NCBI GenBank assembly: GCA_903932865.1
Contig: CAIZHQ010000007.1
Location: forward strand, 1-64,000
Length of the DNA: 64,000 nt
Origin: an uncultured Burkholderiales bacterium
Lineage (GTDB): Bacteria > Pseudomonadota > Gammaproteobacteria > Burkholderiales > Burkholderiaceae_C
Reading direction: 5' to 3'
A program made the translations under genes and the position numbers. The notes below the pieces were generated by a model. It made no database searches. It was given only the letters and a program-made list of their open reading frames with translations, and was not told where the DNA came from. Below, piece after piece: positions 21,845 to 39,444 of this stretch. How positions within the stretch are numbered: the stretch's first letter is position 1; the number at the start of each line of letters is the position of its first letter.

Positions 21845-21851
21845 AGAAACG

Positions 21852-21877: not shown

Positions 21878-21887
21878 ACTGGGTCGC

Positions 21888-21975: not shown

Positions 21976-22036
21976 TTGGGGTGAGATTGTAGCCTTATCA
22001 AGGGGGGCAGCCCGAGAGCGCCCCCTGTTGAAAGCA

Positions 22037-23209
22037 TTATTTGCTGCCGGGTGCGGCCACTTGAACCCACTTGCCGCCTTTGATCTGGTCAATGGAGACC
22101 ATCTCTGGCCCAACATGATTGTTGGTGAAGCTTTGTCGCGTGAAGGTGGTGAAGTCCTGGTGGGCCACAGCGGGCATGGCCTTGGCCAAACCTGCCGAGC
22201 TCAGGTTGCGCCCGGCAGCTTGCAGGCCCGCAATGAACCAGGAGGTGTAGGAGTACGCATTGGCTGCGTTCTCATCGGCGTCCATGTTGAACTTGGTTTT
22301 GAAGTCGGCCATGAATTTCTTGGCCACCGGATCGCTGCTGTCGGCCTCGTGGAGTTTCCAGCCACCGATGCCATAAAGGCCTTCGACACTGTCTTTGCCC
22401 AATCGGGCCACGATGCTGGAGCGACCAGGAATGGTGGTCAATACCTTGACTTGCGACCAGTTGAGCTTTTTCACTTCGCTCATGACGCCCAGGGTTTCAC
22501 GCACCACGGTGCCTGCCACAATCAGGTCGACGTTGGCGGCCTTCATTTTGGCCACTTGGGATGAAAAATCGATGTCCCCCACTTTGTAAGCCGCTTCTGC
22601 CGCGACTGTGAAGCCACCGGCTTTGAGTGCCTGGTTGATGCCGCCACGCACCAGATCACCAAACGGGCCTTCCTGGTAAATCACGCCGACTTTTTGGGTT
22701 TTCCAGTTGTTCACGGCCCAGCTCAGCGCCGTGGCGGTGGTGGTGTCGTAGTTCATCACGGTGGTGAACAGCAAAGGGCTGTTGCCACTGACCTTCTGAA
22801 TGATGCCCGATGCACCCCATGGGGCAAAGACCATGACGCCTGCATCGTTGGCGAGTTTGACGGTGGCTGCATTGGGCCCGGAGCCAAAGGGGTTGACGAT
22901 GGCAAACACGTTGTCGCTTTTGATCAGCTTTTGCACGGCCCGCACCGCCAGTTGGGGCTGGCTGCCGTTGTCTTCCACAATCAGCCTGATCCTGCGGCCA
23001 TGAACCCCACCTGCGGCGTTGAGTTCGTCAATGCGCAGCTGCATGCCGTTGCGCAGCATGGGCATGCCGGGGGCGGCTGGGCCTGACAAGTCGATGTGGG
23101 TGCCGATCACGATTTCGTTGTCGCTCACCCCTTGGGTGGTTTGGGCTTGCACCCCGCTGGCCAGCATGCCAGTGGTGGCGAGGATTAGAAGTCTTCGGTT
23201 CAATTTCAT
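22037..23209 (-). CDS. Branched-chain-type ABC importer, periplasmic binding protein
   Basis: A 390-aa LivK-type receptor. The signal peptide LLILATTGMLASGVQA ends at an Ala-x-Ala-like site, and the mature protein begins TTQGVSDNEIVIGTHIDLSGPAAPGMP. It is the last gene of the 15-gene operon, 73 bp after the acyl-CoA synthetase. With LivF, LivG, LivM and LivH upstream it completes a second full importer. The operon context points to a hydrophobic acid or cleavage-pathway substrate, not an amino acid. Confidence 0.92.
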   Translation of the reverse strand: MKLNRRLLILATTGMLASGVQAQTTQGVSDNEIVIGTHIDLSGPAAPGMPMLRNGMQLRIDELNAAGGVHGRRIRLIVEDNGSQPQLAVRAVQKLIKSDNVFAIVNPFGSGPNAATVKLANDAGVMVFAPWGASGIIQKVSGNSPLLFTTVMNYDTTTATALSWAVNNWKTQKVGVIYQEGPFGDLVRGGINQALKAGGFTVAAEAAYKVGDIDFSSQVAKMKAANVDLIVAGTVVRETLGVMSEVKKLNWSQVKVLTTIPGRSSIVARLGKDSVEGLYGIGGWKLHEADSSDPVAKKFMADFKTKFNMDADENAANAYSYTSWFIAGLQAAGRNLSSAGLAKAMPAVAHQDFTTFTRQSFTNNHVGPEMVSIDQIKGGKWVQVAAPGSK

Positions 23210-23282
23210 GGTGGTCTCCTGATGGTTAAAAGATAGTCTCTAGGCCTGGTTTGCGCATGCGTGCTTACCCTGAGCGGCCACC

Positions 23283-25130
23283 TCAGTTCGGGTACATGCT
23301 GTCAATCAACGCCGCATATTTGCTGGCAATGACTTTGCGTTTGAGTTTCATGGTCGGGGTGAGCTCTTCGTCCTCGGCGGTGAGCAGCTCGGAGATGATT
23401 TTGAAAGACTTGATTTGCTCGACCCGTGCCAGTTGGGGGTTGATGCGTTCGATTTCGCTGTGGATCAGGGCGATCACTTCGGGGGCTCGCGTGAGGCTGC
23501 CAAAGTCGGTGTAGGGCACTTGGTGCTCCTGTGCATAACGGGCCACATGTTCCTGGTCGATCATGACCAGGCAAGTGAGGTATTTGCGGCCATCGCCAAT
23601 GACCACGGCATCGGTGATGTAGGGGCTGAACTTGAGCAGGCTCTCGATGTGGCTGGGGGTGATGTTCTTGCCGCCCGAGGTGATCAGGATGTCCTTGATG
23701 CGGTCGCGAATGGCCAGGTAGCCCTCGGCATTGATTTCGCCGCAATCGCCGGTGTGCAGCCAGCCTTCATCGTCCAGACTTTCCCGTGTTTTGTCGGGCA
23801 GGTTCCAGTAACCGCCAAACACGTTGGGGCCACGCACCAACACCTCGTTGTCCTTGCCAATTTGAATTTCGGTGCCTGGGGCTTTGACACCCGCCCAGCC
23901 CAGACGAATGGCGCCTTTGGGCGTGGCGGTGCAAAAGCCGGTGGTTTCGGTCATGCCGAAGGCTTCGCGCAGTTCGATGCCGCAGCCCAAATACCAGCGG
24001 ATCAAATCTGGGGGGACCGGCGCGGCACCGGTGAGCGCACTTTTGACGTTTTGCAAGCCCAAGAAAATCCGGACATTGCGCAAGGCCAGCCACTGCATGG
24101 CCCTGAGCAAAAGACCGGGTGGGGGGGTGGCTTGGCCCTGCAGTTGGGCTTCGACCCTGGCCGCACCCATGGCGCGTGTGGTGTGGTAAGCCCAACGGGC
24201 CGGTGCAATGGCATCGCGCATGAACAGGTCGATTTGGGAGTACATTTTTTCCCAGAAGCGGGGCGGTGCGAACACCAGATGCGGGGCCACCTCACGCATG
24301 TCGTTGAACACCGTGCCCGAGTTTTCCGGAAAGTGGACCACCAGCCCCAAAGCCAAGGGGTTGTAGACCGAGGACATGCGCTCGGCGATGTGGCAAAGCG
24401 GCAAAAAGGACACCGATTTGTCACCCGGCTGGATGTCCAGGTAGTCGGTGGCCAGGCTCAGTTGAAAGACCAAGTTGCGGTTGAGGGTCATGGCCCCCTT
24501 GGGTGCCCCCGTGGTGCCCGAGGTGTAGACCAAAAAAGCCAAGTCCTGGGCTTGGGTGGTGTCGATCGATTCGTCAAACAGGGCTTGTCGGGTTTGCGCC
24601 AAGGCTATTCCATGCGCTAGGAATTCATCAAAAAATTCTACATCGGGATCAGAAAAGCCTCGCAGGCCTTCGCGGTCCATCACCACAATGCGCTGCAGCT
24701 GCGGGCATTGGGCGCGAATCTCCATGGCCTTGTCGAGTTGCTCCTGGTTTTCAACAAACAGCAATCGGCTGCCCGAGTCCATCAGAATGTGTTGCAGCTG
24801 ACCCGCCGAAGAGGTGGGGTAAACGCCGTTGCCAACCAGGCCCATGCATTGGGCACCCATGTCGACGTAGAGCCATTCGGGTCGGTTTTCGGCCAGCACG
24901 CAGACCACTTGCCCGCGTTCAAGCCCCAGGGCTTGCATGGCCAAGCCGGTTGCCCGCGCGCGGGCAAAGTATTCGCCCCATGTCGTGCTTTGCCACAGGC
25001 CCCTTTGCTTGTAGCGCAAGGCCGGTTGATCGGCCCAGGTGCGACAGCGCTGGCGAAAGACTTTGGCAGGCGTGTCTTCGCCAAGATAGGAGATGGCGGC
25101 GGTAGCGTTCATGGTGTCTGAGGTGTTCAT
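23283..25130 (-). CDS. Long-chain-type acyl-CoA synthetase (AMP-forming)
   Basis: A 615-aa ANL-superfamily ligase that activates a carboxylic acid to its CoA thioester through an acyl-AMP. The AMP loop is VYTSGTTGAPKGAM, the adenine-binding region includes EAFGMTETTGFC, and the hinge/A8 region is WLHTGDCGEINAEGYLAIRDRIKDILITSGGKNITPSHIE. Length and the C-terminal PTMKLKRKVI Lys region fit the FadD15/long-chain group. It supplies the CoA entry step for the two thiolases of this operon. The ATG codons at 25130 and six codons later are both possible starts. Confidence 0.93.
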   Translation of the reverse strand: MNTSDTMNATAAISYLGEDTPAKVFRQRCRTWADQPALRYKQRGLWQSTTWGEYFARARATGLAMQALGLERGQVVCVLAENRPEWLYVDMGAQCMGLVGNGVYPTSSAGQLQHILMDSGSRLLFVENQEQLDKAMEIRAQCPQLQRIVVMDREGLRGFSDPDVEFFDEFLAHGIALAQTRQALFDESIDTTQAQDLAFLVYTSGTTGAPKGAMTLNRNLVFQLSLATDYLDIQPGDKSVSFLPLCHIAERMSSVYNPLALGLVVHFPENSGTVFNDMREVAPHLVFAPPRFWEKMYSQIDLFMRDAIAPARWAYHTTRAMGAARVEAQLQGQATPPPGLLLRAMQWLALRNVRIFLGLQNVKSALTGAAPVPPDLIRWYLGCGIELREAFGMTETTGFCTATPKGAIRLGWAGVKAPGTEIQIGKDNEVLVRGPNVFGGYWNLPDKTRESLDDEGWLHTGDCGEINAEGYLAIRDRIKDILITSGGKNITPSHIESLLKFSPYITDAVVIGDGRKYLTCLVMIDQEHVARYAQEHQVPYTDFGSLTRAPEVIALIHSEIERINPQLARVEQIKSFKIISELLTAEDEELTPTMKLKRKVIASKYAALIDSMYPN

Positions 25131-25141
25131 GGTGTGCAGTT

Positions 25142-25918
25142 TCAGCGCCAGGTTTTGCGGCGTTTCCAGCGTTGCGAAGTGCCGCTGATGCCTTGGGTGC
25201 TGTGACCGCCCAGATAGGCTTCGCGCACATCGGCTTTTTGACTCAACACGGCGCAGCTGTCGGCCGCCACGATGCGGCCCAGTTCCATGATGTAGCCATA
25301 GTCCGCATGCGCCAGTGCAATGGCGGCGTTTTGTTCCACCACCAAAACTGCGGTGCCCGTTTCCTGGCGGATGCGGCTGATGATGTTGAAGATTTCTTTG
25401 GTCAGCAAGGGCGACAGACCCAACGAGGGCTCATCGAGCATCAGCAGTTGTGGTTGCGCCATGTAGGCGCGGCCGATGGCCAGCATCTGCTGCTCGCCTC
25501 CGGACAACAAGCCAGCGTGTTGTTGCGCCCGTTCCAGCAAACGCGGAAACCATTGAAAGACGCGCTCCAGGTCTTGTCGAATCGCATCGGCGTCGCGGCG
25601 TGTGTAGGCCCCCATGTTGAGGTTTTCGCGCACACTGAGGAAGGGGTAGATTTGGCGACCTTCGGGCACCAGCACCAGACCCCGTCGGCAGACCTCATCG
25701 GCATCAAGTCCGTGAATGGCTTGGTCGTTCAGCAGGACTTGGCCTTTGAACGGGTCGATCACCCCGGCCAAGGTGTTGAGCAAGGTGGTTTTGCCCGCCC
25801 CATTGGCCCCCAGCACCGTGACCATTTGTCCTTTTACAACCTGCAGGTTGACCCCTTGCATGGCCGCAATGGGGCCGTACCAGGTTTCCAGGTTGCGTAC
25901 TTCCAGCAAGGCACTCAT
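25142..25918 (-). CDS. ABC importer ATPase, LivF type (second system)
   Basis: A 258-aa ATPase with Walker A GANGAGKT, signature LSGGEQQMLAIGRAYM and Walker B LLMLDEPSLGLSPLL. I chose the ATG giving MSALLEVRNLETWYG, two bases after the LivG stop; the longer frame lies inside livG. The C-terminus extends about 18 basic residues beyond the usual AYLGG end, which is slightly unusual. It couples ATP hydrolysis to import. Confidence 0.92.
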   Translation of the reverse strand: MSALLEVRNLETWYGPIAAMQGVNLQVVKGQMVTVLGANGAGKTTLLNTLAGVIDPFKGQVLLNDQAIHGLDADEVCRRGLVLVPEGRQIYPFLSVRENLNMGAYTRRDADAIRQDLERVFQWFPRLLERAQQHAGLLSGGEQQMLAIGRAYMAQPQLLMLDEPSLGLSPLLTKEIFNIISRIRQETGTAVLVVEQNAAIALAHADYGYIMELGRIVAADSCAVLSQKADVREAYLGGHSTQGISGTSQRWKRRKTWR

Positions 25919-25920
25919 GC

Positions 25921-26700
25921 TCAAGCTCCCAAATAAGCGGCAATCACGGCCGGATGACTTTGAACTTCGGTCGAACTGCCTTGGGCCAATACCCGGCCTT
26001 GGGCCATGCAAATGACCCGATCGGCCACGGCACTGACCAGGGACATGTCGTGTTCCACCATGACCACGGTGATGCCCAGTTCGCTGCGGATGTCATCGAT
26101 CCAGAAGGCCAGCTCACGCGTTTCTTCAGGGTTCAGGCCCGAGGCCGGTTCATCCAGAAACAAGAGTTCAGGCTGGGCGCACAAGGCACGACCGAGCTCC
26201 ACCACTTTGCGCACGCCATAAGGCAGGCCAGCAATGGGCGCATGTCGCCAGGGTGTGAGGTCCAGAAAGTCGATGATTTTTTCCACTTCGGTGTGGGCCG
26301 CCTCTTCGAGTCGGGTCAGGGCCGGTGTGCGCAAAACTTGTTGCCACCAATGGCCCTGAAAGAAGCGATGGCGACCGAGCAAAAGGTTGTCCAGCACCGT
26401 GGCCGCTTCGAACAGCTCAATGTTCTGGAAGGTGCGCGCAATGCCAAGGGAGGCAATTTGGTGGCGCTGCATTTGGGTCAGGTCTTGACCCTTGAAGTGG
26501 ATTTGTCCGCCACTGGGGTCGAACACGCGGGTGACCGCATTGAGCAGCGAGGTTTTGCCAGCGCCATTGGGGCCGATCACGGCCAGCACTTCGCCGGGCC
26601 TGACGTCCAGGCTCAAATCGGCAATGGCTTGCACGCCGCCAAAAGTGAGAGACAGTTTGTCCACTGTCAGCAGCGGGGGGGTGGCGTTGGATGTTTTCAA
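25921..26700 (-). CDS. ABC importer ATPase, LivG type (second system)
   Basis: A 259-aa ATPase with Walker A GPNGAGKT, the LivG segment LGIARTFQNIELFEAATVLDNLLLGRH, Walker B LLFLDEPASGLNPEET and VVMVEHDMSLVS. It overlaps the LivM stop by ATGA. It forms the motor with LivF of the same cluster. It is more like the textbook LivG than the copy at 7.4-8.2 kb because it lacks the long N-terminal tail. Confidence 0.93.
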   Translation of the reverse strand: MKTSNATPPLLTVDKLSLTFGGVQAIADLSLDVRPGEVLAVIGPNGAGKTSLLNAVTRVFDPSGGQIHFKGQDLTQMQRHQIASLGIARTFQNIELFEAATVLDNLLLGRHRFFQGHWWQQVLRTPALTRLEEAAHTEVEKIIDFLDLTPWRHAPIAGLPYGVRKVVELGRALCAQPELLFLDEPASGLNPEETRELAFWIDDIRSELGITVVMVEHDMSLVSAVADRVICMAQGRVLAQGSSTEVQSHPAVIAAYLGA

Positions 26701-27773
26701 CGGTAACGCTCCGATTTCATATAACGCTTGTTGCGCTTGAAAGTGTCTTTTCGGTAAATCGGAAAAGATTCCAGCAGGCTGCGGATCTTGAGCCAGCGGC
26801 CGTTCAGACCCATGGGCTCAAACAGCACAAAAAGGGCCAGTACCAAGCCAAAGATGAAGGTCTCCAGGCCGAACTGTTTGGCCACGCTGTCGGGCAAAAA
26901 CGGTTTGATGCGGGAGATGGCGGTGGGCAGGGAACTGATGAGAATGGCCCCCAGCACCGCGCCGCGCAAACTGCCCAGGCCGCCAATCACAACCATGAGC
27001 ACAAGCTCCAGAGACAGCAGCAAGGTGAAGCCATCGGGCGTGAGGTATTTCAGGTGGTGTGCCAGCATGCTGCCCGCCAGCCCGGTGATGCCCGCTGACA
27101 AGGCAAAAGCACCTGCCTTCATGCGCTCGACCGGGATGCCCAAGGCGTAAGAGGCCGCTTCGGATTCACGCACGCCGATCAGGGCGCGGCCCATGCCCGA
27201 TCGCAAGATGTTGAGCAAGACCACCAGCACCAGCACCAGCGTGATCAGACAGAAATAATAAAAAGCCTTGGAGCCGCTCAGCGACAGGCCCAGAAAGACG
27301 GGATCGTTCACCGCCAGGCCGGTAAAACCGCCGGTGACCGAGCTCCAGTGGCCGATGATTTGCTCGACGATGATGGCGAACGCCATGGTCACCATGGCCA
27401 GGTAGAGACCGGAGACGCGGATAGCGGGAATGCCCACCAGCAAACCGGCAGCGGCGCTGAGCAGTGCGGCCATCACCATGGAGACCGGCAAGGGCACGCC
27501 TTTGGACAGGAACCAGGCGTGGCCGTAGGCCCCAATCGCAATGAAGGCGGCATGACCCAAGGACACCTGTCCGGTCAGGCCGGTCAGCGACATCAAGCCC
27601 AGGCTGGCCACGCACAGTATGAAGACATAGGCCATCTCGCCGAGCACGAAAGGCGTCATGAACCAGGGCAGGGCACACAAGCCCAGCAGCAGCAAGGCAT
27701 AAAGGTTGCGGTCAAAGGGGCTGCGCCACAGGGCGAAGCCTTCGCGGTATTGGGTGTGGTAATCAAAACGCAT
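26697..27773 (-). CDS. ABC importer permease, LivM type (second system)
   Basis: A 358-aa permease with about ten membrane segments. The hallmark SLTGLTGQVSLGHAAFIAIGAYGHAWFL and the EAA-like GVRESEAASYALGIPVERMKAGAFALSAGITGLAGSML are clear. A hydrophilic N-terminal stretch (MRFDYHTQYREGFALWRSPFDR) precedes the first helix. It lies 20 bp after the LivH gene. Confidence 0.92.
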   Translation of the reverse strand: MRFDYHTQYREGFALWRSPFDRNLYALLLLGLCALPWFMTPFVLGEMAYVFILCVASLGLMSLTGLTGQVSLGHAAFIAIGAYGHAWFLSKGVPLPVSMVMAALLSAAAGLLVGIPAIRVSGLYLAMVTMAFAIIVEQIIGHWSSVTGGFTGLAVNDPVFLGLSLSGSKAFYYFCLITLVLVLVVLLNILRSGMGRALIGVRESEAASYALGIPVERMKAGAFALSAGITGLAGSMLAHHLKYLTPDGFTLLLSLELVLMVVIGGLGSLRGAVLGAILISSLPTAISRIKPFLPDSVAKQFGLETFIFGLVLALFVLFEPMGLNGRWLKIRSLLESFPIYRKDTFKRNKRYMKSERYR

Positions 27774-27793
27774 CGGTGGGGTTCTTTCTTGGT

Positions 27794-28690
27794 TCAGACG
27801 CGCCGGCCATGGGCTTCACCCAGCAAGCCATGGGGTCGCACAATGAGCACCGCGATCAGCACCAGGTAGGCCACGATGTCTTTGGTGCCGTCGGGCATGT
27901 ACACCCCGGCGTACTGTTCGATGAGGCCAATCAGAAGTCCGCCCACAATCGCCCCCGGAATGCTGCCAAAGCCGCCCAACACCAGGGCTGATAAGGCCTT
28001 GAGGGTGACAAACCACAAGCTGATGTCCACCAAGGTGATGGGCGCCAACAGCACGCCTGCAAAGGCCGCTGTGACACCGCCCAGGGCCCAGACCATGGAG
28101 TTGACGCGCTTGACGCGCACACCGTTCAGGTAAGCGGCCAGCTGGTTTTGTGAAGCCGCCTGCATGGCCACACCGAGTCGGGTGAATCGGAAAAAGAAGA
28201 ACAGCACCAAGGTCACCATCATGGACACGCCCAGAATGACCAGTTGCAAGTTGGCGATCGACAGGCCGGCCAATTGCGTGCTTTGCTGGCTCCAGGGTGT
28301 GGGGTAGTTGCGTGACTCAGAGCCAAACAGCATGCTCACAGCACCCCGGATCATGAAGGCCAGTGCAATGGTCAGCATCACGCCTGCAAATTGCGGTTGG
28401 CCTGCAATGCGACGAATGACCAAGGCATCCAGTGCAAAAGCAAACAGGGCCACACCCAGCACGGTGATCATCAAGGCCAGCCAAAACGGCAAGCCCCACA
28501 CCGTGATCAAGCCCCAGGCACTGAAGGCCGAGACCACCAGCAAGTCCCCATGGGCAAAGTTGAGCACTTCGGTGGCTTTGTAAATCAGCACAATGCCCAG
28601 CGCCACCAGCGCATAGATGGCCCCCACGGCGATGCCGTTGACGGTCAGCTGGGCAAAGGTTAGCCAAAAATCATTCATGGCGTTTTCCAT
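27794..28690 (-). CDS. ABC importer permease, LivH type (second system)
   Basis: A permease of up to 298 aa with LivH features: NGIAVGAIYALVALGIVLIYKATEVLNFAHGDLLVV near the N-terminus and GGFGSIPGAIVGGLLIGLIEQYAGVYM near the C-terminus. The start overlaps the end of the HxlR gene by up to 20 bp; an ATG at 28678 (MNDFWLTFAQ) is an alternative. The regulator is therefore inside the operon it probably controls. Confidence 0.91.
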   Translation of the reverse strand: MENAMNDFWLTFAQLTVNGIAVGAIYALVALGIVLIYKATEVLNFAHGDLLVVSAFSAWGLITVWGLPFWLALMITVLGVALFAFALDALVIRRIAGQPQFAGVMLTIALAFMIRGAVSMLFGSESRNYPTPWSQQSTQLAGLSIANLQLVILGVSMMVTLVLFFFFRFTRLGVAMQAASQNQLAAYLNGVRVKRVNSMVWALGGVTAAFAGVLLAPITLVDISLWFVTLKALSALVLGGFGSIPGAIVGGLLIGLIEQYAGVYMPDGTKDIVAYLVLIAVLIVRPHGLLGEAHGRRV

Positions 28691-29615
28691 TGGATGTCGG
28701 GAAGGAAACTTCCCAGGGGTTCAGGTTTTGGTGACAGTGATCGCAAGCCACCATGGGTAAGAAGCGGTGTTGACACGCGCGGTGGCGGGGGCGAATCGAA
28801 CTTTGTTCGTGCAAATGCGATTCACTGGCCCAGTTGGACAGGCACACGATGTAGCCAAACAGATCCCGGCTGCTGGGGGTCAGCCGGTACAGCCTGCGGC
28901 GGGCATCCTGTCCATCGGTTTCGCAGCTGAGCAAGTGGGACTCGACCATGTCCGAGAGGCGGCGCGACAGAACTTTGGGCCCGATGCCGAGCACATGGGT
29001 GATTTGGTCAAAGTAATGACAACCGAGCACCACCGCCGTGAGGATCAACAAACTCCAGCGGTCAACGCGCAAACCCAGACTCATGTCGCGGGCCTCCCGC
29101 ACGGACATCCGTGGGGTGCGAAGCCCCTGCAGCGGTTGGTGTCGCAAGCGGGGATTGGGCACGAGGCTGTAGTCCAGGTCCTTCATGCTGATCTCTTCAC
29201 CGCAGGCTTTGCAGCACAGCACTGGATTGAAGTGGTGTTGACAAGTTTGGTGGAAAAGTTTTTTGGGCAGGTCTTGCGCGCGCTTGCCCCATTTCTTTTC
29301 CCAGGCCCAAATCATCAGGGTGGCGTCGTACAAACCCAAGCCTTTGCGGGTCAGGTGGTATTCATGACGGGGGGGGTTGTCCTGGTACAGGCGTGGCTTG
29401 ATGACCCCGATTTGCACCAAAGAGCGCAAACGGTCTGACAAAGTGGGGCGGGGAAAGTTGGAAAAGCTTTGAAGCTCGTCGAACCGTCGAATCCCCAGAA
29501 AAGCCGACAGCATGACCTGCACCGTCCAGCGGTCACCCAAGACCTTCAGGCCGTGGCTGAGCGTGCTGGATGCCAGCGCGGCATGCGTCAGTTCCAGGTC
29601 GGGGTTGCTGACCAT
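28671..29615 (-). CDS. Tandem HxlR-type winged-helix regulator with duplicated Cys/His motifs
   Basis: A 314-aa protein with two HxlR-like winged helices. The first spans about residues 18-110 (LKVLGDRWTVQVMLSAFLG...LSDRLRSLVQIGVI); the second about 178-262 (LRVDRWSLLILTAVVLG...LSRRLSDMVESHLL). Each is followed by the same C-x-H-x7-C-x2-C motif, at Cys125/His127/Cys135/Cys138 and Cys281/His283/Cys291/Cys294, which looks like a zinc site. Usual HxlR proteins have one domain of about 110-150 aa and act as dimers, so this may be a fused pseudo-dimer. It lies 30 bp after the thiolase and probably regulates this cluster. Confidence 0.85.
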   Translation of the reverse strand: MVSNPDLELTHAALASSTLSHGLKVLGDRWTVQVMLSAFLGIRRFDELQSFSNFPRPTLSDRLRSLVQIGVIKPRLYQDNPPRHEYHLTRKGLGLYDATLMIWAWEKKWGKRAQDLPKKLFHQTCQHHFNPVLCCKACGEEISMKDLDYSLVPNPRLRHQPLQGLRTPRMSVREARDMSLGLRVDRWSLLILTAVVLGCHYFDQITHVLGIGPKVLSRRLSDMVESHLLSCETDGQDARRRLYRLTPSSRDLFGYIVCLSNWASESHLHEQSSIRPRHRACQHRFLPMVACDHCHQNLNPWEVSFPTSNGKRHE

Positions 29616-29645
29616 GATTTCACCAGAGCTTATGGAGGAGGGCGT

Positions 29646-31816: not shown

Positions 31817-33051
31817 GCTTGTCCTGACTCCACCACAAAACTCACCACCGTGGCGCAGGAGCCGCCGATGTTCAGGGTTTGGATGCGCTTGGCGCCTTCA
31901 ATCTGACAGGCCCCGGCTTGGCCGGTGACTTGGCGCGTGGCATCCCACAGCATCCGCGTACCGGTGGCGCCCACCGGGTGGCCACAGCCAATCAGGCCGC
32001 CACTCATGTTCACGGGGCAGCGTCCCCCTGGGGCAATCGTGCCGTCTTCGACCGCTTGCCAGCTTTGGCCGGGAGCCGTCAGGCCCAGGTGGTCAATGGC
32101 CATGTATTCGGTGGTGGTGAAGCAGTCGTGGGTTTCGATGCCGCTCATGGCGTCAATGCCCGACACACCGGCACGGCGCCAGGCGTCTTCGATGGTTTGC
32201 CGTACATGGGGGAACACAAAGGGCTGGCCCTGGCTGCGTTCGATTTTGTCGCGCAGGCGCAGACCCGCGTTGCGGTGACCCCAGCCCGCAATGCGGGCAA
32301 GTGTGTCCAGGCCGTGGCCGCGTTTTTGGGCATAGGCCTGTGCAAAACGGGCGGAAGCCAGCACCACGGCGCAGGCCCCGTCGGTGATCTGGCCGCAGTC
32401 TTGGCGGCGTGTGCCGGGTTCGATGATCGGGTTGGCCTCGTCGTCATCGGTGAAGCTCAGTGCATCGAATTGCCAAGCGCGGGTTTGTGCCAGCGGGTTG
32501 CGTTTGGCGTTGCCATAGTTGATTTCGGAAATGCGGTTCAGGTGCTTGCGGTCCAGGCCGTAGCGCCGCTCATATTCTTGAGCCAGCAAGCCAAAAGCGG
32601 CGGGCCACATGTAGGTGCAGTCAATGTCTTCGTGCCCCTGCCAGGCCGCAGCGTTCTGGTTGACCGAGGCCACATTGCCCGAGGTGTTTTTGAATTCTTC
32701 GACGCCCATCACCAACACACAGTCGTAACGGCCCGCTTCGATTTCGGCCATGGCCGCCAGCACACCCAGGGACGAAGATGCGCAGGCGCCCTCATGGCGC
32801 ATGGCGGGCACGCCCCAGAGTTCGGGGGTCATTTGCGCCACCATGGAGCCCAAGTGGGCTTGCTGGCGTTGCAGTTCGCCAAAGGCATTGCCCACATGGA
32901 TGCTCTCGATGGCCGAGGTGTCCAAGCCTGCGTTGTTCAGCACGCCTTGCGTGGCTTCTTGCACCATGTCAGAAATGTCCTGACCCTGACGCGACCAGGA
33001 CTTGGCAAAGTCGGACTGGTAGCCGCCCAAAATGTAAACGGGTGCGCTCAT
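31813..33051 (-). CDS. SCP-x-like thiolase
   Basis: A 412-aa thiolase-fold enzyme. The likely nucleophile is Cys90 (HEGACASSSLG), the second motif is ETHDCFTTTEYMA (HDCF in place of HDAF), and NMSGGLIGCGHPVGATG closes the active site. These are SCP-x-type features associated with thiolysis of branched or ring-bearing CoA esters. Unlike the thiolase at 12-13 kb it has no OB-fold partner gene next to it. It overlaps the nitronate-monooxygenase-like gene by ATGA. Confidence 0.9.
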   Translation of the reverse strand: MSAPVYILGGYQSDFAKSWSRQGQDISDMVQEATQGVLNNAGLDTSAIESIHVGNAFGELQRQQAHLGSMVAQMTPELWGVPAMRHEGACASSSLGVLAAMAEIEAGRYDCVLVMGVEEFKNTSGNVASVNQNAAAWQGHEDIDCTYMWPAAFGLLAQEYERRYGLDRKHLNRISEINYGNAKRNPLAQTRAWQFDALSFTDDDEANPIIEPGTRRQDCGQITDGACAVVLASARFAQAYAQKRGHGLDTLARIAGWGHRNAGLRLRDKIERSQGQPFVFPHVRQTIEDAWRRAGVSGIDAMSGIETHDCFTTTEYMAIDHLGLTAPGQSWQAVEDGTIAPGGRCPVNMSGGLIGCGHPVGATGTRMLWDATRQVTGQAGACQIEGAKRIQTLNIGGSCATVVSFVVESGQA

Positions 33052-34052
33052 TGGAAACTCCTTTGGGGATAGGGCAGGGCTTGTAAACGCTGCGTGGCGG
33101 TGGTGTATTCAAGGGCCAGTTGCTCCACGATGCTGGCCATGGAGGCGGTTTGGTGGATGGTGCCCAGGCCCTGGCCTGCTGCCCAAACATCCAACCATTT
33201 CTTGCCTGCAAAGGAAGCACTGCTGTCGTATTGGCGGGAAGGGGCATCGGGCATGTTGTCCGGGTCCAGGCCGTTCAGCCGAAGCGAGGGCTTGAGCCAG
33301 CTGGCCAATGTGCCGGTCACCCCTGCGCTGACGATCAGGTCGTCCACGGTGCTGTCGACAACCATTTGTTTGTAGGCCTCGGGCGCCATGCTTTCGGTGG
33401 CCGGAATGAAGCGCGTGCCCATGTACACATAATCGGCCCCCGCTGCGATGGCCCCAGCAATGCCCCAGCCGTCGCTGATGCCACCGCCCAAAACCACTTC
33501 GCCATCGAAGAACTCGCGGATGGCGCTGACAAAAGCAAACGGCGACAAAAAGCCGGTGTGTCCCCCTGCACCAGCCGAGACGCAAGCCAGGCCATCGGCC
33601 CCGGCCTTGACGGCTTTTTGGGCCAGCGTCAGGTTGATGACGTCGGCAAACACACGGCCGCCATAGCCATGCACCACTTCGATGGCGGGTTTGGGGCTGC
33701 CCAAAGCCGTGACCACCACCGGCGGTTGGTAGCGGGCAATCAATTCCAAGTCTTGCGTCAAGCGGGTGTTGGACGAGTGGGTGACGAGGTTGGCACACCA
33801 GGGGCCTACCGTGTCTGCGCCTTGCACATCACGGGCGGCCGCCAGGCCTTCGGTGATGGTTTTCATCCACGCGTCGAGTTTGTCGATGGGCCGTGCATTG
33901 GGGGTGGGAAAGGCCCCCACAATGCCAGCCTTGCAAGCGGCCATCACCATCTCGGGGCCCGAGATCAAAAACATCGGTGCAGCAAACACCGGCAGTCTCA
34001 GAGGCAAGCGCGGGTGGGTCATGCGACCGGGGGTCATGTCTTCGTGGGTCAT
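33048..34052 (-). CDS. Nitronate monooxygenase-family FMN protein
   Basis: A 334-aa TIM-barrel FMN protein of the 2-nitropropane dioxygenase group. Motifs include LPVFAAPMFLISGPEMVMAACKAG at the N-terminus, AGAGGHTGFLSPFAFVSAIREFF, and the phosphate-binding GGGISDGWGIAGAIAAGADYVYMGTRFIPATES. Homologues in CoA-catabolic clusters are often not true nitronate oxidisers and may be enoyl reductases or reactive-nitro detoxifiers. It overlaps both neighbouring genes by ATGA. Confidence 0.88.
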   Translation of the reverse strand: MTHEDMTPGRMTHPRLPLRLPVFAAPMFLISGPEMVMAACKAGIVGAFPTPNARPIDKLDAWMKTITEGLAAARDVQGADTVGPWCANLVTHSSNTRLTQDLELIARYQPPVVVTALGSPKPAIEVVHGYGGRVFADVINLTLAQKAVKAGADGLACVSAGAGGHTGFLSPFAFVSAIREFFDGEVVLGGGISDGWGIAGAIAAGADYVYMGTRFIPATESMAPEAYKQMVVDSTVDDLIVSAGVTGTLASWLKPSLRLNGLDPDNMPDAPSRQYDSSASFAGKKWLDVWAAGQGLGTIHQTASMASIVEQLALEYTTATQRLQALPYPQRSFQ

Positions 34053-35749
34053 GGGGTGATACCGCTTTCCTGCGTGACCGGCCGGCGCGACTGCACAACG
34101 CCAAACCGACCGGCCACAAAAGCCAAGTTGGTCAGCGTCGCGTTGCCGGCAGGGTTCAGACCCGTGACGTGGTAATCGCTGTAGGCCGCTGCAAAGTTCA
34201 AAGGCATCGCCCCCACCAGGTTGATGGTCAGCTGGGCCCCTGCGCGGGCATAGGCGGCCTCGGCCTGGGCGATGAAGTCTTCACTCGTGGAATACAAAAA
34301 TGCGGTCAAACCGCCTTGGCTGCGGGCGTCATGCGTGGCTTGCTTGAGGGCATCTTGTGCGTCCTCACAGGCGATGACAAAACTGATCGGGCCGAAGCGT
34401 TCTTCGGCATACAGATCACGCTCGCGCGTGCTGACCTGCAGCATGAGGGGCGTGCTGGTGCGGGCGCCCGGGAATTCCGGGTGCTTATAAGGCTGGGGTG
34501 ACAGCAGCACTTGGCCGCGCTGCTGGCCTTGGCGTTGCATGTCTTGCAGCAAGGCCAGGGTTTGCGGCGACTGGATGGTGGCCAAGATCATGGACGCTTT
34601 TTTGGGGTCCGCGGTCAGGGCCTCAACGGCTGCGGCCAGGCGTTGGGCGACCTCGTGGAAGGGCACCATGCCTTGCGGAGTGTCCACCCCCGATTGCGGG
34701 ATGTAGATGTTTTGTGGGCTGGTGCACATTTGCGCGCTGAACAGGCACATGGTGGTGGCCAGATTGCGCAAAGCCGCGTCGAGGTCTTGCGCCGATTCCA
34801 GCACCACGGTGTTGCAGCCGGCTGTTTCGGTGAAGGCCAATGCAGGATGGGCGTTTTGCTCCACCCATTGGCCAAAACGCACACTGCCGGTGAAGTCCAC
34901 GATCGCCGCTTTGGGGTGCTTGATCAGCACTTTGCCAATCGGCTCGCTGGCCGTGTCGATGGCCAGGGTCACCAGGTTGGGGTCAAAGCCTGCGGCCTGC
35001 AGCACTTGGCGAAAGGCCTTGACCGTGATGGCCATGGGCAGCACGGTGGCCGGGTGGGGTTTGACGATCACCGGGTTGCCGGTGGCCAGGCTGGCCATCA
35101 TGGAAGGCCAGGCGTTCCAGGTGGGAAAGCTGGCGCACGAAAAGCATACCGCTGTGCCACGGGGCACCAGCCTGTAGGTTTTTTGTAAGTGGATGTCAGA
35201 ACTGCCAAAGCGCCTGGACCAGTGGGCAGACGGGGCCACCGAGCGCATGGCTTGTTCGGCATACACCAGGGCTTCGATGCTGCGGTCGAGTGCGTTCACA
35301 CCCGAGCCGGCATAAGCCATGTTGTAGCTTTGCCCTGCGGTGTGCATGACCGCGTGCAAGACTTCAAAAAGGTGGTCACGGTACAGGACTTCGAGCACTT
35401 CCATCAGTACGCCAATGCGCTGCGTGTAAGGCGCTTGTGCCCAGCTGTCCATGGCTTTTTCGGCGGCTTCGAACAGCGGGTTGATGTCCGATTGCGGGTA
35501 AAGCACGCCCAGCGCCTGCTGGGTGTAAGGCGATAGTTCTTCGCCAATCCAGCCGGTGATGCCGGGTTGGTCCAGTTCAAATCGGCCGTTTTTCAGGTGC
35601 TGTTCGAAAGCCGCAAGGCCCGCGCTTTTGGCATGCGCAGCCTCCGGGTATTTGTCGGGCATTTCTGGATAGGGGCTCCAGCAGTGGCGCGTGGCACAGG
35701 CTTGCTGGGCCCGCTCAAAGCGAGCCTGGTGTTTTTCGAAAAGGGTCAT
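34049..35749 (-). CDS. PaaN-like aldehyde dehydrogenase
   Basis: A 566-aa aldehyde dehydrogenase longer than the usual 480-500 aa and resembling the PaaN group of phenylacetate clusters. Active-site residues are Asn212 (TWNAWP), Lys230 (VIVKPHP), Glu308 (TETAGC, where others have ELGG) and Cys342 (SAQMCTSP). About 95 extra residues precede the ALDH domain. The ATG is preceded by TTTGGAG and overlaps the lipocalin-like stop (TGATG). There are no paaA-E or paaZ genes nearby, so it probably oxidises an aldehyde made by the oxygenases of this operon. Confidence 0.87.
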   Translation of the reverse strand: MTLFEKHQARFERAQQACATRHCWSPYPEMPDKYPEAAHAKSAGLAAFEQHLKNGRFELDQPGITGWIGEELSPYTQQALGVLYPQSDINPLFEAAEKAMDSWAQAPYTQRIGVLMEVLEVLYRDHLFEVLHAVMHTAGQSYNMAYAGSGVNALDRSIEALVYAEQAMRSVAPSAHWSRRFGSSDIHLQKTYRLVPRGTAVCFSCASFPTWNAWPSMMASLATGNPVIVKPHPATVLPMAITVKAFRQVLQAAGFDPNLVTLAIDTASEPIGKVLIKHPKAAIVDFTGSVRFGQWVEQNAHPALAFTETAGCNTVVLESAQDLDAALRNLATTMCLFSAQMCTSPQNIYIPQSGVDTPQGMVPFHEVAQRLAAAVEALTADPKKASMILATIQSPQTLALLQDMQRQGQQRGQVLLSPQPYKHPEFPGARTSTPLMLQVSTRERDLYAEERFGPISFVIACEDAQDALKQATHDARSQGGLTAFLYSTSEDFIAQAEAAYARAGAQLTINLVGAMPLNFAAAYSDYHVTGLNPAGNATLTNLAFVAGRFGVVQSRRPVTQESGITP

Positions 35750-36213
35750 CAACGTCTCCAAATCAGTCGGTGGTGGCGCAAGATGGGGGAACCTGGCACA
35801 GGGTCGGATGCCGACAGGGTCAGCGTGCCATCGGCTGCAAAGTCCATGTTGCGAACCTGCTGGCTGCCCACAAAGTTGGGGTTCAGCGCATGGCTGACCT
35901 GGTGAACCACCTGGGCCCGACCTTCGTGTTGACGCACTTCATAACGCCCGGCGTATTGAAAGAAACTTTCGAATGCGGCCAGGCGTTCGGCCTCGGGTGC
36001 GCTGCGCACGCTGGCGCTGGACAGGGGTGCGCGACCTGCGCGGGCGATGCAGGCGGCCATGCCGCCGTCGTGCGTGTACTGGATCAGGCCGGTGGCGTCC
36101 GGGCCAAAAGGGTAGGTGGTGGGGCGACCATCGTCGTAGGTGATTTCCCAGCGCACCAGGGTCCAGACACCCAACAAGTCCTGGGCTGTTCGCATGGTTG
36201 TGAAAGTGCTCAT
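35749..36213 (-). CDS. Lipocalin-like domain protein
   Basis: A 154-aa protein with the lipocalin-like pattern LLGVWTLVRWEITYDDGRPTTYPFGPDATGLIQYTHDGGMAACIAR, then AFESFFQYAGRYEV and VVHQVSHALNPNFVGSQQVRNMDF. These domains form small beta-barrels that hold hydrophobic ligands. No signal peptide is seen from the chosen ATG, so it is probably cytoplasmic. It lies between the oxygenases and the aldehyde dehydrogenase, where it could carry or bind a hydrophobic substrate or the cleavage aldehyde. That role is inference. Confidence 0.8.
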   Translation of the reverse strand: MSTFTTMRTAQDLLGVWTLVRWEITYDDGRPTTYPFGPDATGLIQYTHDGGMAACIARAGRAPLSSASVRSAPEAERLAAFESFFQYAGRYEVRQHEGRAQVVHQVSHALNPNFVGSQQVRNMDFAADGTLTLSASDPVPGSPILRHHRLIWRR

Positions 36214-36229
36214 GCTGTATGTTCCCGAA

Positions 36230-37705
36230 TCAGGCCTGTGGCAAGAAGGATTCACGCACCCAGGTGCTGTGAAAACCATGGGGCACGCGCTGAGGCAAGA
36301 TGACCCGAGCAACTGGCCCATGGCCCACGTGTTGTGCATCGATGATCCAGACCTCCGAGCGGTCTTTCAGGCCGTTCCAGACAAAGCCGATCAGGTAACC
36401 GTCGTCTTCGGCCTGCGGGTTGTCCCGTGAGGCAAATGGGGCTTCGCTGAACCAGTAACCTTCGCCGGGGTGGTAGGTCACCGCACTGCCGGTGTCCAGG
36501 TCGTACTTCGCCAAACCTGCAAAGTGGGGTTGCTCCACGGTGCGCGTACGGCCCATCAGCACATGGTAGGTGTAGCGGTTTTTGTAGCCTTGGTACCAGG
36601 CGTTGATCATCGGGAACTCGGTGTTCAGGATGTCGTCCACCACACTTTCGCGGGTCTGGCCGGTGGCCAGGTTGAAACGCCATTGGTAGAACTCGTATTC
36701 GGTGCCTTGGGTGCCGATGGTGAACAGCAAGCGCTTGACATCCAGGCTGCCGTCAAATTGCTTGGGCATGGCGTAGGGCGTGCCCAGCATGACGATTTCG
36801 GTTTCACCTTGGTCGTTGACCTCTTCCCAAGCATTGGCCACATGCAGCATGTAGCGCGGGTCGGCTTCAAACCAGCGGATGTCTTGCGCGCTGCCGTGTC
36901 TCGGGATGACGGCAAAGCGCGACTTCCACTCGGGGTGAAACTCCAGGCTGTAGCGGCCCGCCTTCAAGGCCTCGGGGTTGTTGATCAGTGGGAAGTCATG
37001 TAAGACACTGTAGTTGGCCGTGATGGCCATGTCGTGCGGCAAGCGTGGGCCTGGCAATTCCACCGGAACCAGGGTTTGCAATTGACCTTGCGCGTTGACC
37101 ACGCCGTAATGCATGTAGGGGTGCTTGTTGCCATAGGCAAAAAACAGGTATTCGCCCGTGCGCTCGTCCACGCGTGAGTGGGCCGAAATTTGCAGACCCT
37201 TCAGGCGTGGATCGGACTCAAGCTTGCCAACCGTCTGCAGCGTCAAGGGATCAACCTGGTAGACCGCGCCACCGCGGTACCACATGGAGAGCAATTTGCC
37301 GTTGTGAAATTTCACATCGGTGTTGGAGGTATTTTTGAGCGCATCGTCGGGCAAAGCACCTTCGGGCAGACGTTGTTTGAGTCCGGGTGCCAGGCTAACG
37401 CCTGCCGCTTGGTCGGCCTGCAAACCGTCGGTGTTGACCCAGCGGTTGCGGTAAGTGACCTGTCCTTTTTGAAAATGCACCGCGTGCAACATGCCGTCGC
37501 CGTCGTACCAGTGGTATTTCCCTTTGGGCGTGTGCTGAGGCACAGGGCCGTTGCGCACGTACATGCCGCTGAAATCTTTGGGGATCTCGCCAATGACTTC
37601 AAAATCATGCACCACCAACTCTTGGTCCACAGGGGCAAACCCTCCCTGCAAATTCGGGTTATCGATCAGATAGGGGGGTGCTTCAACGAAGGTTTCAAGT
37701 CCCAT
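36230..37705 (-). CDS. Carotenoid-cleavage-type (RPE65/lignostilbene) dioxygenase, copy 1
   Basis: A 491-aa non-heme iron oxygenase that cleaves C=C bonds to two carbonyls. The four iron histidines appear intact: His176 (ISAHSRVDE), His224 (LPHDMAIT), His288 (YMLHVANAWEE) and His479 (GFHSTWV). Blade motifs GMYVRNGP and HWYDGDGMLH are present. I chose the ATG with GGAG before it; a longer frame adds 18 residues. It lies 50 bp after its paralogue. The substrate could be an apocarotenoid, stilbenoid or phenylpropenoid. Confidence 0.9.
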   Translation of the reverse strand: MGLETFVEAPPYLIDNPNLQGGFAPVDQELVVHDFEVIGEIPKDFSGMYVRNGPVPQHTPKGKYHWYDGDGMLHAVHFQKGQVTYRNRWVNTDGLQADQAAGVSLAPGLKQRLPEGALPDDALKNTSNTDVKFHNGKLLSMWYRGGAVYQVDPLTLQTVGKLESDPRLKGLQISAHSRVDERTGEYLFFAYGNKHPYMHYGVVNAQGQLQTLVPVELPGPRLPHDMAITANYSVLHDFPLINNPEALKAGRYSLEFHPEWKSRFAVIPRHGSAQDIRWFEADPRYMLHVANAWEEVNDQGETEIVMLGTPYAMPKQFDGSLDVKRLLFTIGTQGTEYEFYQWRFNLATGQTRESVVDDILNTEFPMINAWYQGYKNRYTYHVLMGRTRTVEQPHFAGLAKYDLDTGSAVTYHPGEGYWFSEAPFASRDNPQAEDDGYLIGFVWNGLKDRSEVWIIDAQHVGHGPVARVILPQRVPHGFHSTWVRESFLPQA

Positions 37706-37755
37706 GGTTTTCTCCAAATCAGGGTACGTTTCGGGGGGCGGGCGGTGAGGCTTGA

Positions 37756-39246
37756 TCAACGCGCTTGCCCGGAGAGCAAACCGCCGCGTGCCAAATCAGT
37801 CCCGCTGGCCCAGCAGGCATGCGTGCCGCTGCACAGTTTGTGCGGTAACTCGATGCGGCAGATCGGGCCGGCGTCAAACTTTTTGGAGTCAATCAGGATG
37901 ATTTCCGAGCGCTGGGTTTTTTCGTTGGTGATGAAGCTCACCAGGTAACCGTCGTCTTCATCCTTGGCATTCACGCGTGGGGCAAAGGGGGCTTCGCTGG
38001 CGTACTGGCCTTCGGGCAAGCGGATCTCCCAGGAGTCGCCAGTTTGCAAGTCGTGTTTGACATAGCCATGGAACAAGAACCAGCCGGGTACTTGTACGGC
38101 ACTGTAGGCGTAGCGGTAAGGTTTGGTGGCGAAGCGCTGGTTGAACATGCCGAATTCCAAAATGCGCTCGTCCAGACGCTTTTCGGTGGTCTTGCCGGTT
38201 TTGAGATTGAAGCGCCAGCGGTGCAGGTGGCAGCCCATTTTTTTCTGGTCCAGGTAAGACATCATGCGCTCGTAGCCAGCAGGCGCGCCTTCGTAATTGC
38301 GCGGCATGGGGTTGTCTTGGAAATAGCCGTCGAGCACGATCTCGTCGCCCTCTTCATAGGCATTGAGCCAGTGCAGCACAAAGGTGGGCGCGGCTTCAAA
38401 CCAGAGGATGTCTTGGGTTTGACCGCGCCGTGGAATGATGGCAATGCGTGAAGGCGTGTCTTTGAAAAAGCGCACCACATGCTTGCCTTGGGCCAGCAAC
38501 TCGGGATCCCAGTACAGCGGAAAGTCGTTGAGGATGGCGTAGTTTTCGGTGTAGGCCATGTCGTGTGGCAAGCGCGGACCTGGCAACGGAATGGGCACGT
38601 AATGCACCAGCTTGTCGTGCTTGTCGACCACGCCGTAATGCATGTAGGGCGCATGCTTGGAATAGTTGAAAAACAGCAGTTCGCCGTTGCTTTCGTCCAC
38701 TTTGCAATGGGCAGAAATGCCGTCCAGTGGCGACCAGGGCGCAACGCCTTGCTGTTCCAGACTCAGCGGGTCCAGGCGATAGCCTTCGCCGCATTGGTAA
38801 AAGGTGGTGAGCGCCCGGCCCGCGTGCACCACCACATCGGTGCTCGACGAGTCCTTGAGACGGCCATGAGCGCCCCAGCCTGCGCGCTCGGACAAGGCCG
38901 GGTCTTCCATCAAGCCCGCCCACAAGGCCCGGCCCGCTTCCAGTTCGGCTTGCAGGCCCTTGGTTTGGATGAAGCGGTTGCGGTAGCTGACCTGGCCATT
39001 TTTGAAGGCCGCCATGTGCAACATCCCATCGCCATCAAAGGGGTGGTATTTGCCTTTGGCCTGTAAAACCGGGTTTTCAGTATTGCGCAAATAGACGCCA
39101 TCGATGTCCATCGGAATGGCGCCTTCCAGGACCTTCAGATCGGTCGCGTTGACTTCTTCGAGCAAGGGTGTCCAGGCGCCTTGAAGATAGGGGTGGTCGC
39201 CCGGCACCAAGTTGGTGGTGAGGGTGTTCACAATGTCGATGCTCAT
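37756..39246 (-). CDS. Carotenoid-cleavage-type dioxygenase, copy 2
   Basis: A 496-aa paralogue with all four candidate iron ligands: His180 (ISAHCKVDE), His228 (LPHDMAYT), His292 (VLHWLNAYEE) and His476 (GTHACWA). It shares GKYHPFDGDGMLHMAAF and PYMHYGVV with copy 1 but is clearly diverged, so the two probably act on different substrates or successive bonds. It is the promoter-proximal gene of the 15-gene operon, with GGGGACGAG before the ATG. No signal peptide is seen, so cleavage would be cytoplasmic. Confidence 0.9.
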   Translation of the reverse strand: MSIDIVNTLTTNLVPGDHPYLQGAWTPLLEEVNATDLKVLEGAIPMDIDGVYLRNTENPVLQAKGKYHPFDGDGMLHMAAFKNGQVSYRNRFIQTKGLQAELEAGRALWAGLMEDPALSERAGWGAHGRLKDSSSTDVVVHAGRALTTFYQCGEGYRLDPLSLEQQGVAPWSPLDGISAHCKVDESNGELLFFNYSKHAPYMHYGVVDKHDKLVHYVPIPLPGPRLPHDMAYTENYAILNDFPLYWDPELLAQGKHVVRFFKDTPSRIAIIPRRGQTQDILWFEAAPTFVLHWLNAYEEGDEIVLDGYFQDNPMPRNYEGAPAGYERMMSYLDQKKMGCHLHRWRFNLKTGKTTEKRLDERILEFGMFNQRFATKPYRYAYSAVQVPGWFLFHGYVKHDLQTGDSWEIRLPEGQYASEAPFAPRVNAKDEDDGYLVSFITNEKTQRSEIILIDSKKFDAGPICRIELPHKLCSGTHACWASGTDLARGGLLSGQAR

Positions 39247-39275
39247 CTCGTCCCCAAGTTGATGACTGTCTCTAA

Positions 39276-39298
39276 TGAACTCAGATTAAGTCAGTTCA
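39276..39298. promoter_or_regulatory. Perfect inverted repeat in the divergent oxygenase/SDR promoter region
   Basis: TGAACT and AGTTCA are separated by 11 bp, a perfect 6-bp-arm dyad 30-52 bp upstream of the copy-2 oxygenase ATG. Size and place suit an operator for a winged-helix regulator; the tandem HxlR protein of the same operon is an obvious candidate. No GC-rich stem or T-run suggests a terminator. Confidence 0.5.
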
Positions 39299-39444
39299 GC
39301 AAGGAAAGCAACGGGGTTGGAGCGGATGCGCAGTAACGTAGGTGACTACTTTTTGATCCGCTTCCCGCATTCAATCCAGTTTGTTTCCAAGGGCAGGCCT
39401 TGAGCCTTTGCGTGATGCGTCCGGTTTACAAAAGAGGAGATTTC

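Follow-up and report, generated by a model that had tools for sequence, protein, structure and literature searches.

A conserved cluster of catabolic type joins two carotenoid-oxygenase-family enzymes with a dedicated aldehyde dehydrogenase and thiolases in an uncultured Burkholderiales bacterium

Gene content of the cluster

The window analyzed here is a 64,000-nucleotide stretch of DNA, the first 64 kb of a 136-kb contig (CAIZHQ010000007.1) in the 3.77-Mb genome of an uncultured Burkholderiales bacterium (family Burkholderiaceae_C). It holds a row of 15 tightly packed genes, all on the minus strand and read from 39246 to 22037, which opens with two enzymes of the carotenoid oxygenase family (CCDa and CCDb) and continues with an aldehyde dehydrogenase (ALDH), thiolases, a regulator, an importer and a coenzyme A (CoA) ligase. 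A preliminary description of this DNA had placed 15 one-strand genes at 22037-39246; all of them are present in the list of open reading frames (ORFs), all were identified by Pfam, and the assignments that it gave to the oxygenases, lipocalin-like protein, ALDH, FMN enzyme, thiolases, HxlR regulator, importer and ligase are backed by Pfam or NCBIfam matches. In the order of transcription the genes are:

37756..39246, minus: CCDa, carotenoid-oxygenase family (PF03055, 405.5 bits, cut-off 27)
36230..37759, minus: CCDb, second carotenoid-oxygenase-family enzyme (PF03055, 412.2 bits, cut-off 27)
35749..36213, minus: Lipocalin_5-domain protein (PF13924, 111.8 bits; listed ORF 35749-36339, likelier start 36213)
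34049..35761, minus: long ALDH, PaaN-like, of the oxygenase-linked group (TIGR02288, 602.4 bits, cut-off 578.75)
33048..34052, minus: FMN enzyme of NMO/FabK type, candidate double-bond reductase (PF03060, 77.1 bits)
31813..33051, minus: SCPx-type thiolase (NCBIfam PRK06289, 593.6 bits, cut-off 375)
30842..31816, minus: DUF1295 membrane protein, steroid-reductase-like, candidate reductase (PF06966, 153.8 bits)
29646..30845, minus: classical thiolase (PF00108, 154.3 bits from residue 169; PF02803, 114.2 bits)
28671..29615, minus: tandem HxlR transcription regulator (PF01638, two stretches)
27794..28690, minus: LivH-type permease (PF02653, 121.6 bits)
26697..27773, minus: LivM-type permease (PF02653, 127.8 bits)
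25921..26700, minus: LivG-type ATPase (PF00005 and PF12399)
25142..25918, minus: LivF-type ATPase (PF00005; listed ORF 25142-26011, likelier start 25918)
23283..25130, minus: acyl-CoA ligase, long-chain type (PF00501, 226.2 bits, and PF23562)
22037..23209, minus: LivK-type periplasmic binding protein (PF13458, 225.9 bits)

After correction of the start codons, adjacent genes share up to ~20 bases or lie at most 73 bases apart, and because many of them overlap by a few bases the arrangement suggests a single operon. A promoter scan of 21700-40500 returned no consensus sites (4.5 were expected from shuffles) and a terminator scan of the same region stayed at chance level, with 22 candidates against 21.3 expected. 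The listed ORF of the classical thiolase (29646-31337) is over-long: as read from the translation, the thiolase domain begins near residue 165 and the gene spans ~29646-30845. The FMN enzyme has a FabK chain as its top PDB match and a chain named nitroalkan dioxygenase as its second, and it scores 90 bits on the FabK model (cut-off 453). The acyl-CoA ligase scores 394.3 bits on the FadD11 model, under the cut-off of 950. The Liv-type importer is complete, with a binding protein, two permeases and two ATPases (Peripla_BP_6, BPD_transp_2 twice, ABC_tran twice). No acyl-CoA dehydrogenase was recognized by Pfam among the cluster proteins.

The two oxygenases

CCDa and CCDb are 43% identical to each other. 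CCDb forms its own clade in the tree, and CCDa has orthologues at 77-80% identity in five genomes of the host's family. Residues were counted in 126 aligned sequences, of which 86 come from 80 named loci of a wider scan (see below) and the other 40 from three plasmids and genomes of the family. These sequences are not all independent, since by length and position genome G082 and locus L130 represent one contig. The four His iron ligands are kept in 125 of the 126, the window pair included, so that the four-His character given to both window proteins in the preliminary description holds in the alignment. The one deviating sequence (L071, match 7898-9358, on a metagenome-assembled contig) has Pro in place of the fourth ligand, either a variant or a sequence error.

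Tyr101 and Lys134 are named in PMC8191317 as key catalytic residues of the lignostilbene dioxygenases (LSDs), and its section 9 reports the second shell of LSD4 (Glu135, Glu353 and Glu418) as acidic throughout the family. The phenol-binding pair is missing from the present sequences, with Tyr at 101 in none of 126 (one gap) and Lys at 134 in none. Position 135, beside which the alignment holds a one-residue insertion (at 134-135), is likewise acidic in 0/126 and carries Gln (96), Arg (14), Leu (8), Met (7) or Val (1). The other two second-shell acids, matched to LSD4 by motif, are Glu in 126/126 and 125/126, respectively, and Phe59 is retained, or is Tyr, in the groups counted. The replaced second-shell Glu is thus Gln (residue 151) in CCDa and Arg in CCDb. 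An acid stands three residues on in 97 of 98 CCDa-type sequences, where, judging from the alignment, it might take over the second-shell role; 21 of 28 CCDb-type sequences have no acid within -3 to +5. The placement of the Gln is supported by the PDB sequences of the apocarotenoid oxygenase ACO, since its Glu150Gln mutant scores higher against CCDa (140.4 bits) than the wild type (139.0) or the Glu150Asp mutant (138.1). CCDa seems to be a natural counterpart of the laboratory mutant behind structure 5kjd, with Gln at the apparent site of Glu150 in Synechocystis ACO, provided that the two positions are equivalent as we infer.

The window pair misses the cut-offs of three curated models: the LSD equivalog of NCBIfam (212.4 and 248.3 bits, cut-off 800), NOV2 (175.9 and 201.4, cut-off 650) and the 8'-apo-carotenoid 13,14-cleaving dioxygenase NF052295 (223.1 and 249.4, cut-off 675). 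Membership in the lignostilbene dioxygenases was rejected on the absence of Tyr101 and Lys134 and on the missed cut-offs. The closest solved relative by sequence score is plant CCD1 of Osmanthus fragrans (9m3e, 7vud; the sequence used, 9m3e, is a two-residue variant), and plant CCD1 is also the best PDB match, by E-value, of the predicted CCDa model (pLDDT 91.4). Two oxygenase matches in relatives, G082:C4:5962-7404 and G045:C185:41761-43221, hold one in-frame TGA each; they may run past a stop or be broken genes.

The aldehyde dehydrogenase

The ALDH of the window passes the PaaN model TIGR02288 narrowly. Matches of this type (E ≤ 1e-120) were found in 42 of the 299 genomes of the host's family and their scores are bimodal: 28 lie at 793-914 bits and represent true PaaN, 13 lie at 575-630 bits, and one partial gene reaches 482 bits. 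All 13 members of the lower group are located within 4.2 kb of an oxygenase match (E ≤ 1e-60), compared with 0/28 true PaaN genes within 10 kb, and no genome has both kinds. The lower group stands apart from true PaaN in the tree, with a mean between-group identity of 42%; the tree holds 17 sequences against 8 of the 28 true PaaN, is midpoint-rooted and has a support of 1.0 for the PaaN branch and 0.46 for the other. The group is not restricted to the family, as relatives at 48-53% identity to the window protein reach into the Alpha- and Gammaproteobacteria: Qipengyuania (L078), an uncultured Erythrobacter (L081) and an uncultured Woeseia (L092).

The window ALDH is thus a dedicated enzyme tied to the oxygenases, which supports a step from aldehyde to acid. 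It is the only PaaN-like match of the host at E ≤ 1e-20. A role in the phenylacetate pathway was considered and rejected, for the host has a PaaZ elsewhere (1005.7 bits) as well as PaaA/PaaC-family genes. In the oxygenase-linked group 12 of 13 members pass the TIGR02288 cut-off (that of G082 falls below it), and such genes may be misannotated as PaaN.

Linkage within the family of the host

In the survey of the 299 family genomes, a CCDa-like protein (E ≤ 1e-60) was found in 21 and an SCPx orthologue (E ≤ 1e-100) in 18. Both occur together in 15 of the 18 SCPx genomes, always at most 6.2 kb apart and in seven cases at most 55 bases apart; the probability of this co-occurrence by chance is ~6e-18, or 7e-17 without the genome of the host, with no correction for phylogeny in either value. 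Long tandem HxlR matches are found in 10/299 genomes (nine near full length, and G205 in two pieces), nine of which have an oxygenase at E ≤ 1e-60. NMO, DUF1295 and thiolase genes recur beside the oxygenases in relatives, and the lipocalin gene adjoins the ALDH gene in G082, G132, G109, G148, G005, G062 and G252.

Two modules can be distinguished in the family, some genomes lacking some of their members. Module A consists of a CCDb-type oxygenase, ALDH, lipocalin, ligase, alpha/beta hydrolase, TctC-type protein, FMN enzyme, SCPx and often HxlR; module B consists of CCDa, DUF1295, thiolase, HxlR, the full Liv importer, ligase and LivK. The window combines the two without the ligase and hydrolase of module A, homologues of which lie in a second locus of the host (see below). 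An enoyl-CoA hydratase is present in the relatives G147 and G188 and a FadB-type protein in L121. A tentative further member of the cluster, read divergently from it and absent from the preliminary description, is:

39400..40338, plus: SDR-family oxidoreductase (adh_short, 123.5 bits)

Its homologues, at 43-44% identity, are found inside the CCDa modules of G082 and G186. A chance neighborhood was rejected on the co-occurrence and proximity of oxygenases, ALDH, SCPx and HxlR in the family genomes, together with their recurrence in the named loci. The linkage of the cluster is conserved, far beyond chance in the family of the host.

Distribution beyond the family

The wider scan used one genome per species and gave 569 confirmed matches; the best 80 of these are the named loci, some of which lie on short contigs. 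By title they belong mostly to Alpha-, Beta- and Gammaproteobacteria, and one is labeled Acidimicrobiales. The partners are SCPx in 37 loci, HxlR in 34, DUF1295 in 32, thiolase in 26, NMO in 21 and ligase in 19, with ALDH (8), lipocalin (4) and LivH (4) being rarer. The DUF1295 label rests on sequence likeness and tblastn, and most other gene communities were labeled from one scanned member each. Neighbor genes were picked by a simple script, which dropped the DUF1295 gene of the window behind the over-long thiolase ORF. In the same 80-locus analysis the window genes that flank the cluster fall in no family of at least five genes, the SDR excepted, and the LivM, FadD and LivK genes of the cluster itself belong to families below five genes.

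The preliminary description had made its reading depend on the oxygenases not occurring elsewhere without these neighbors, and here the picture is divided: at least three of the six main partner families (SCPx, HxlR, DUF1295, thiolase, NMO and ligase) are present in 35 of the 80 loci, and none of the six in 25. Several of the partner-empty loci have another conserved synteny in common, so that part of this oxygenase branch stands in another context. Oxygenases ~55-59% identical to CCDa stand in other conserved contexts without thiolase partners in L109, L110, L112, L115 and L128, and the same holds for the Erythrobacter-type loci L113, L116, L119, L125, L127 and L131; oxygenases in such thiolase-free contexts possibly have another function.

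In Pararhodobacter aggregans, an alphaproteobacterium, the CCDa and CCDb genes are adjacent, at 72-73% identity and with the lipocalin, and this arrangement suggests horizontal transfer as far as sequence comparison can tell. Plasmid-borne relatives at 43-56% identity are found in Cupriavidus, Polaromonas and Sphingopyxis.

Second oxygenase locus and lifestyle of the host

The genome of the host encodes four such oxygenases. The other pair lies outside the window, on the same contig and ~75 kb from the cluster:

C7:114232-122375 (L037 entry 114232-123287): second oxygenase pair

Its neighbors are two TctC-type binding proteins, a flavin reductase, an alpha/beta hydrolase, an AMP-forming ligase and an IclR regulator. 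Because the relatives G082, G147 and G186 carry homologues of the second-locus genes and of the window genes in one region, the host set may be one pathway that is split over two loci. Elsewhere in the genome (C16:744573-756699, L165) there is a PufL/M-type reaction centre, with crtB/crtI-like, DUF3623 and rubrerythrin-domain genes adjacent to each other. Given the reaction-centre and crtB/crtI-like genes, the host is probably a pigmented phototroph.

Proposed pathway and alternative explanations

The observations are those of a conserved catabolic cluster of recognizable kind, in which the oxygenases form a distinct branch and the ALDH is a dedicated one: its gene content, its conserved linkage, the conserved iron ligands of its oxygenases and the absence of the phenol-binding residues. 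One mechanism that would fit them, and which we hold to be an even call, is that the cluster forms one catabolic unit in which an imported non-phenolic, probably isoprenoid or polyene compound is cleaved at C=C bonds, the resulting aldehydes are oxidized and the acids are degraded by CoA thiolysis.

For the single reactions, their order, the substrate class and the role of the regulator, we infer the following scheme. The Liv-type importer would bring in an unsaturated compound, probably a carboxylate, and the iron enzymes CCDa and CCDb would use O2 to cut its conjugated C=C bonds. Cleavage of a conjugated alkene would give alpha,beta-unsaturated aldehydes, which the dedicated ALDH would convert into acids. 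CoA esters would be made by the acyl-CoA ligases, one in the window and one in the second locus, the latter together with the alpha/beta hydrolase. Oxidation and CoA loading of unsaturated aldehydes would lead to enoyl-CoA directly, so that an acyl-CoA dehydrogenase would not be needed. The FMN enzyme and the DUF1295 protein may remove the remaining double bonds, the SCPx-type and classical thiolases would shorten the acids, and the tandem HxlR protein may sense the substrate or an intermediate. In peroxisomes, methyl-branched 3-oxoacyl-CoA is a substrate of SCPx-type thiolases, which fits isoprenoid acids. On this fit and on the missing phenol-binding pair, a non-phenolic conjugated isoprenoid, for example an apocarotenoid or a polyene acid, is the likeliest class of substrate. 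The sequence of import, cleavage, oxidation, CoA loading, reduction and thiolysis set out in the preliminary description thus gains from the co-occurrence and proximity of the partner genes, whereas its phenylpropenoid or stilbene option is weakened by the absence of the LSD residues. A broader proposal, which we put forward tentatively and would not rely on, is a horizontally spread pathway that mineralizes carotenoid-derived polyenes by means of oxygenases with an altered second shell, an oxygenase-specific ALDH and branched-chain CoA thiolysis, with the ALDH and the thiolase as its genome markers.

Several points weigh against the reading of a single isoprenoid-degrading unit. Besides the 25 loci that are empty of partners, the SCPx genomes G205, G294 and G003 have no CCDa-like match, G205 having an oxygenase fragment where a contig ends. 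Replacement of the second-shell Glu could alter the chemistry, we found no characterized enzyme of this oxygenase branch, and the four oxygenases of the host have low identity to both LsdA (28-30%) and CCD1 (33-37%). By query TM-score the best of the matches listed for the CCDa model is LsdA (0.84, against 0.81 for CCD1). A ligase community is present in 13 loci, and the member scanned, that of Brevundimonas bullata, has its best match in PRK12582 (631.7 bits, cut-off 777), which we take to be feruloyl-CoA synthase-like; an aromatic acid may thus be indicated. In some of the alphaproteobacterial loci there are in addition genes for a TonB receptor, an MFS transporter, SnoaL-like proteins and SDRs, and NTF2-superfamily and SDR enzymes are also used in lignin-dimer pathways (PMC12997858).

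The last three of these points, with TonB among the added genes, also favor stilbenoid or phenylpropenoid catabolism, in which LSD-like oxygenases would give aromatic aldehydes while the CoA genes handle a cinnamoyl-type side product. The enzymes are of the same superfamily, the LSD models score near the apocarotenoid model (212 vs 223 and 248 vs 249 bits) and the host has five LigB-family matches. We nevertheless regard this explanation as unlikely: the LSD residue pair is absent throughout the alignment, the curated LSD cut-offs are missed by far and CoA and thiolase genes make up the recurring partners that could be identified. Among the neighbors scanned there was no ring-cleavage gene, most neighbors being unannotated.

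A second alternative, and rather an unlikely one, is the catabolism of a cyclic terpenoid or steroid side chain, in which an alkene of the side chain is cut and a steroid-type reductase, the FMN enzyme and the SCPx thiolase then follow. The DUF1295 protein has a weak Steroid_dh match (24.0 bits, cut-off 22.6), and SCPx-type thiolase, SnoaL-like proteins, SDRs and NMO are found in the same loci (e.g., L075 and L095). However, no steroid ring-degradation gene was recognized in the scanned proteins, a search that did not extend to the whole host genome, and cleavage of isolated alkenes by carotenoid oxygenases is not known.

It is also conceivable, at a very low probability, that two unrelated operons lie side by side, the oxygenase-thiolase genes next to a general Liv/FadD system for the uptake of fatty or aromatic acids. 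In the stretches fetched, module A has no close importer homologue in G132, G109, G110, G105, G194, G062 and G252, and LivH is as rare in the named loci as stated above. Yet the order CCDa, thiolase, HxlR, complete importer, FadD, LivK recurs in G148, G188 and G147, the last two with additional genes separating CCDa from the thiolase; the importer comes after the thiolase in G082, where HxlR lies upstream of CCDa, and after SCPx in G005. Finally, turnover of the host's own carotenoids, in which a phototroph recycles its pigments through the cluster, would suit the reaction-centre and crtB/crtI-like genes and the share of phototrophs among the oxygenase-bearing family genomes (7/21 vs 48/299 overall, p 0.03), but is highly improbable given that reaction-centre matches are missing in 14 of these 21 genomes and in 10 of the 15 with linked SCPx, and that the operon includes a five-gene importer.

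Relation to known systems

The oxygenases resemble the sphingomonad LSDs (LsdA, LSD4) in the catabolic use of the family by bacteria, in the four His, in the predicted aldehyde products and in having several paralogues per genome; they differ from them at positions 101, 134 and 135, and in having CoA ligases and thiolases as partners. CCD1, nearest among the solved structures in both sequence score and fold E-value, is a plant enzyme and keeps the second-shell Glu, unlike the window oxygenases. The bacterial apocarotenoid oxygenases (NF052295; Synechocystis ACO) have the family and the fold in common with them, and ACO structures match, but the NF052295 cut-off is missed and ACO has Glu150. 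The window ALDH belongs to the same overall family as PaaN, at ~42% identity, whereas it stands on a separate, lower-scoring branch in a host with its own PaaZ. A Liv-type importer with an acyl-CoA ligase is also found in p-coumarate uptake systems, the same transporter type serving organic acids; the window importer, in contrast, is linked to oxygenases and thiolases.

No description of a matching cluster or pathway was found in the open-access literature (subscription journals being mostly outside the coverage), in agreement with the earlier statement that no described pathway has this whole set. In the text of PMC12997858, which treats lignin-dimer pathways using lignostilbene dioxygenases, the words 'thiolase' and 'nitronate' do not occur, nor does the word 'operon' in PMC5133782, which treats carotenoid oxygenases and includes bacterial enzymes tested in vitro. 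We likewise found, in the open-access literature, no genetically described bacterial pathway that consumes carotenoids or their breakdown products via CoA.

Plants, algae and phototrophic bacteria produce carotenoids and their breakdown products in vast amounts. If the proposed substrate class is true, bacterial consumption of carotenoids via CoA can be tested with defined genes and genome markers. Whatever the substrate, the cluster places a large, unassigned branch of carotenoid-oxygenase-family enzymes in a functional context, and it reveals an oxygenase-linked ALDH among the proteins that the curated PaaN model accepts. The natural enzymes with a changed second-shell residue also offer material for studying the choice of substrate and reaction in these iron enzymes.

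Surrounding genes

Past the last gene of the row there is a tRNA-Ser and, just beyond it on the minus strand (17515-21059), a molybdenum-cofactor oxidase-like large subunit with a [2Fe-2S] protein, which is possibly a second aldehyde oxidase. A molybdenum enzyme is also found in L089, near its block of HxlR, oxygenase, SCPx, DUF1295 and thiolase. On the other side, upstream of the cluster and beyond the SDR, lie unrelated urease accessory and alpha-subunit genes (40359-44101, minus strand).

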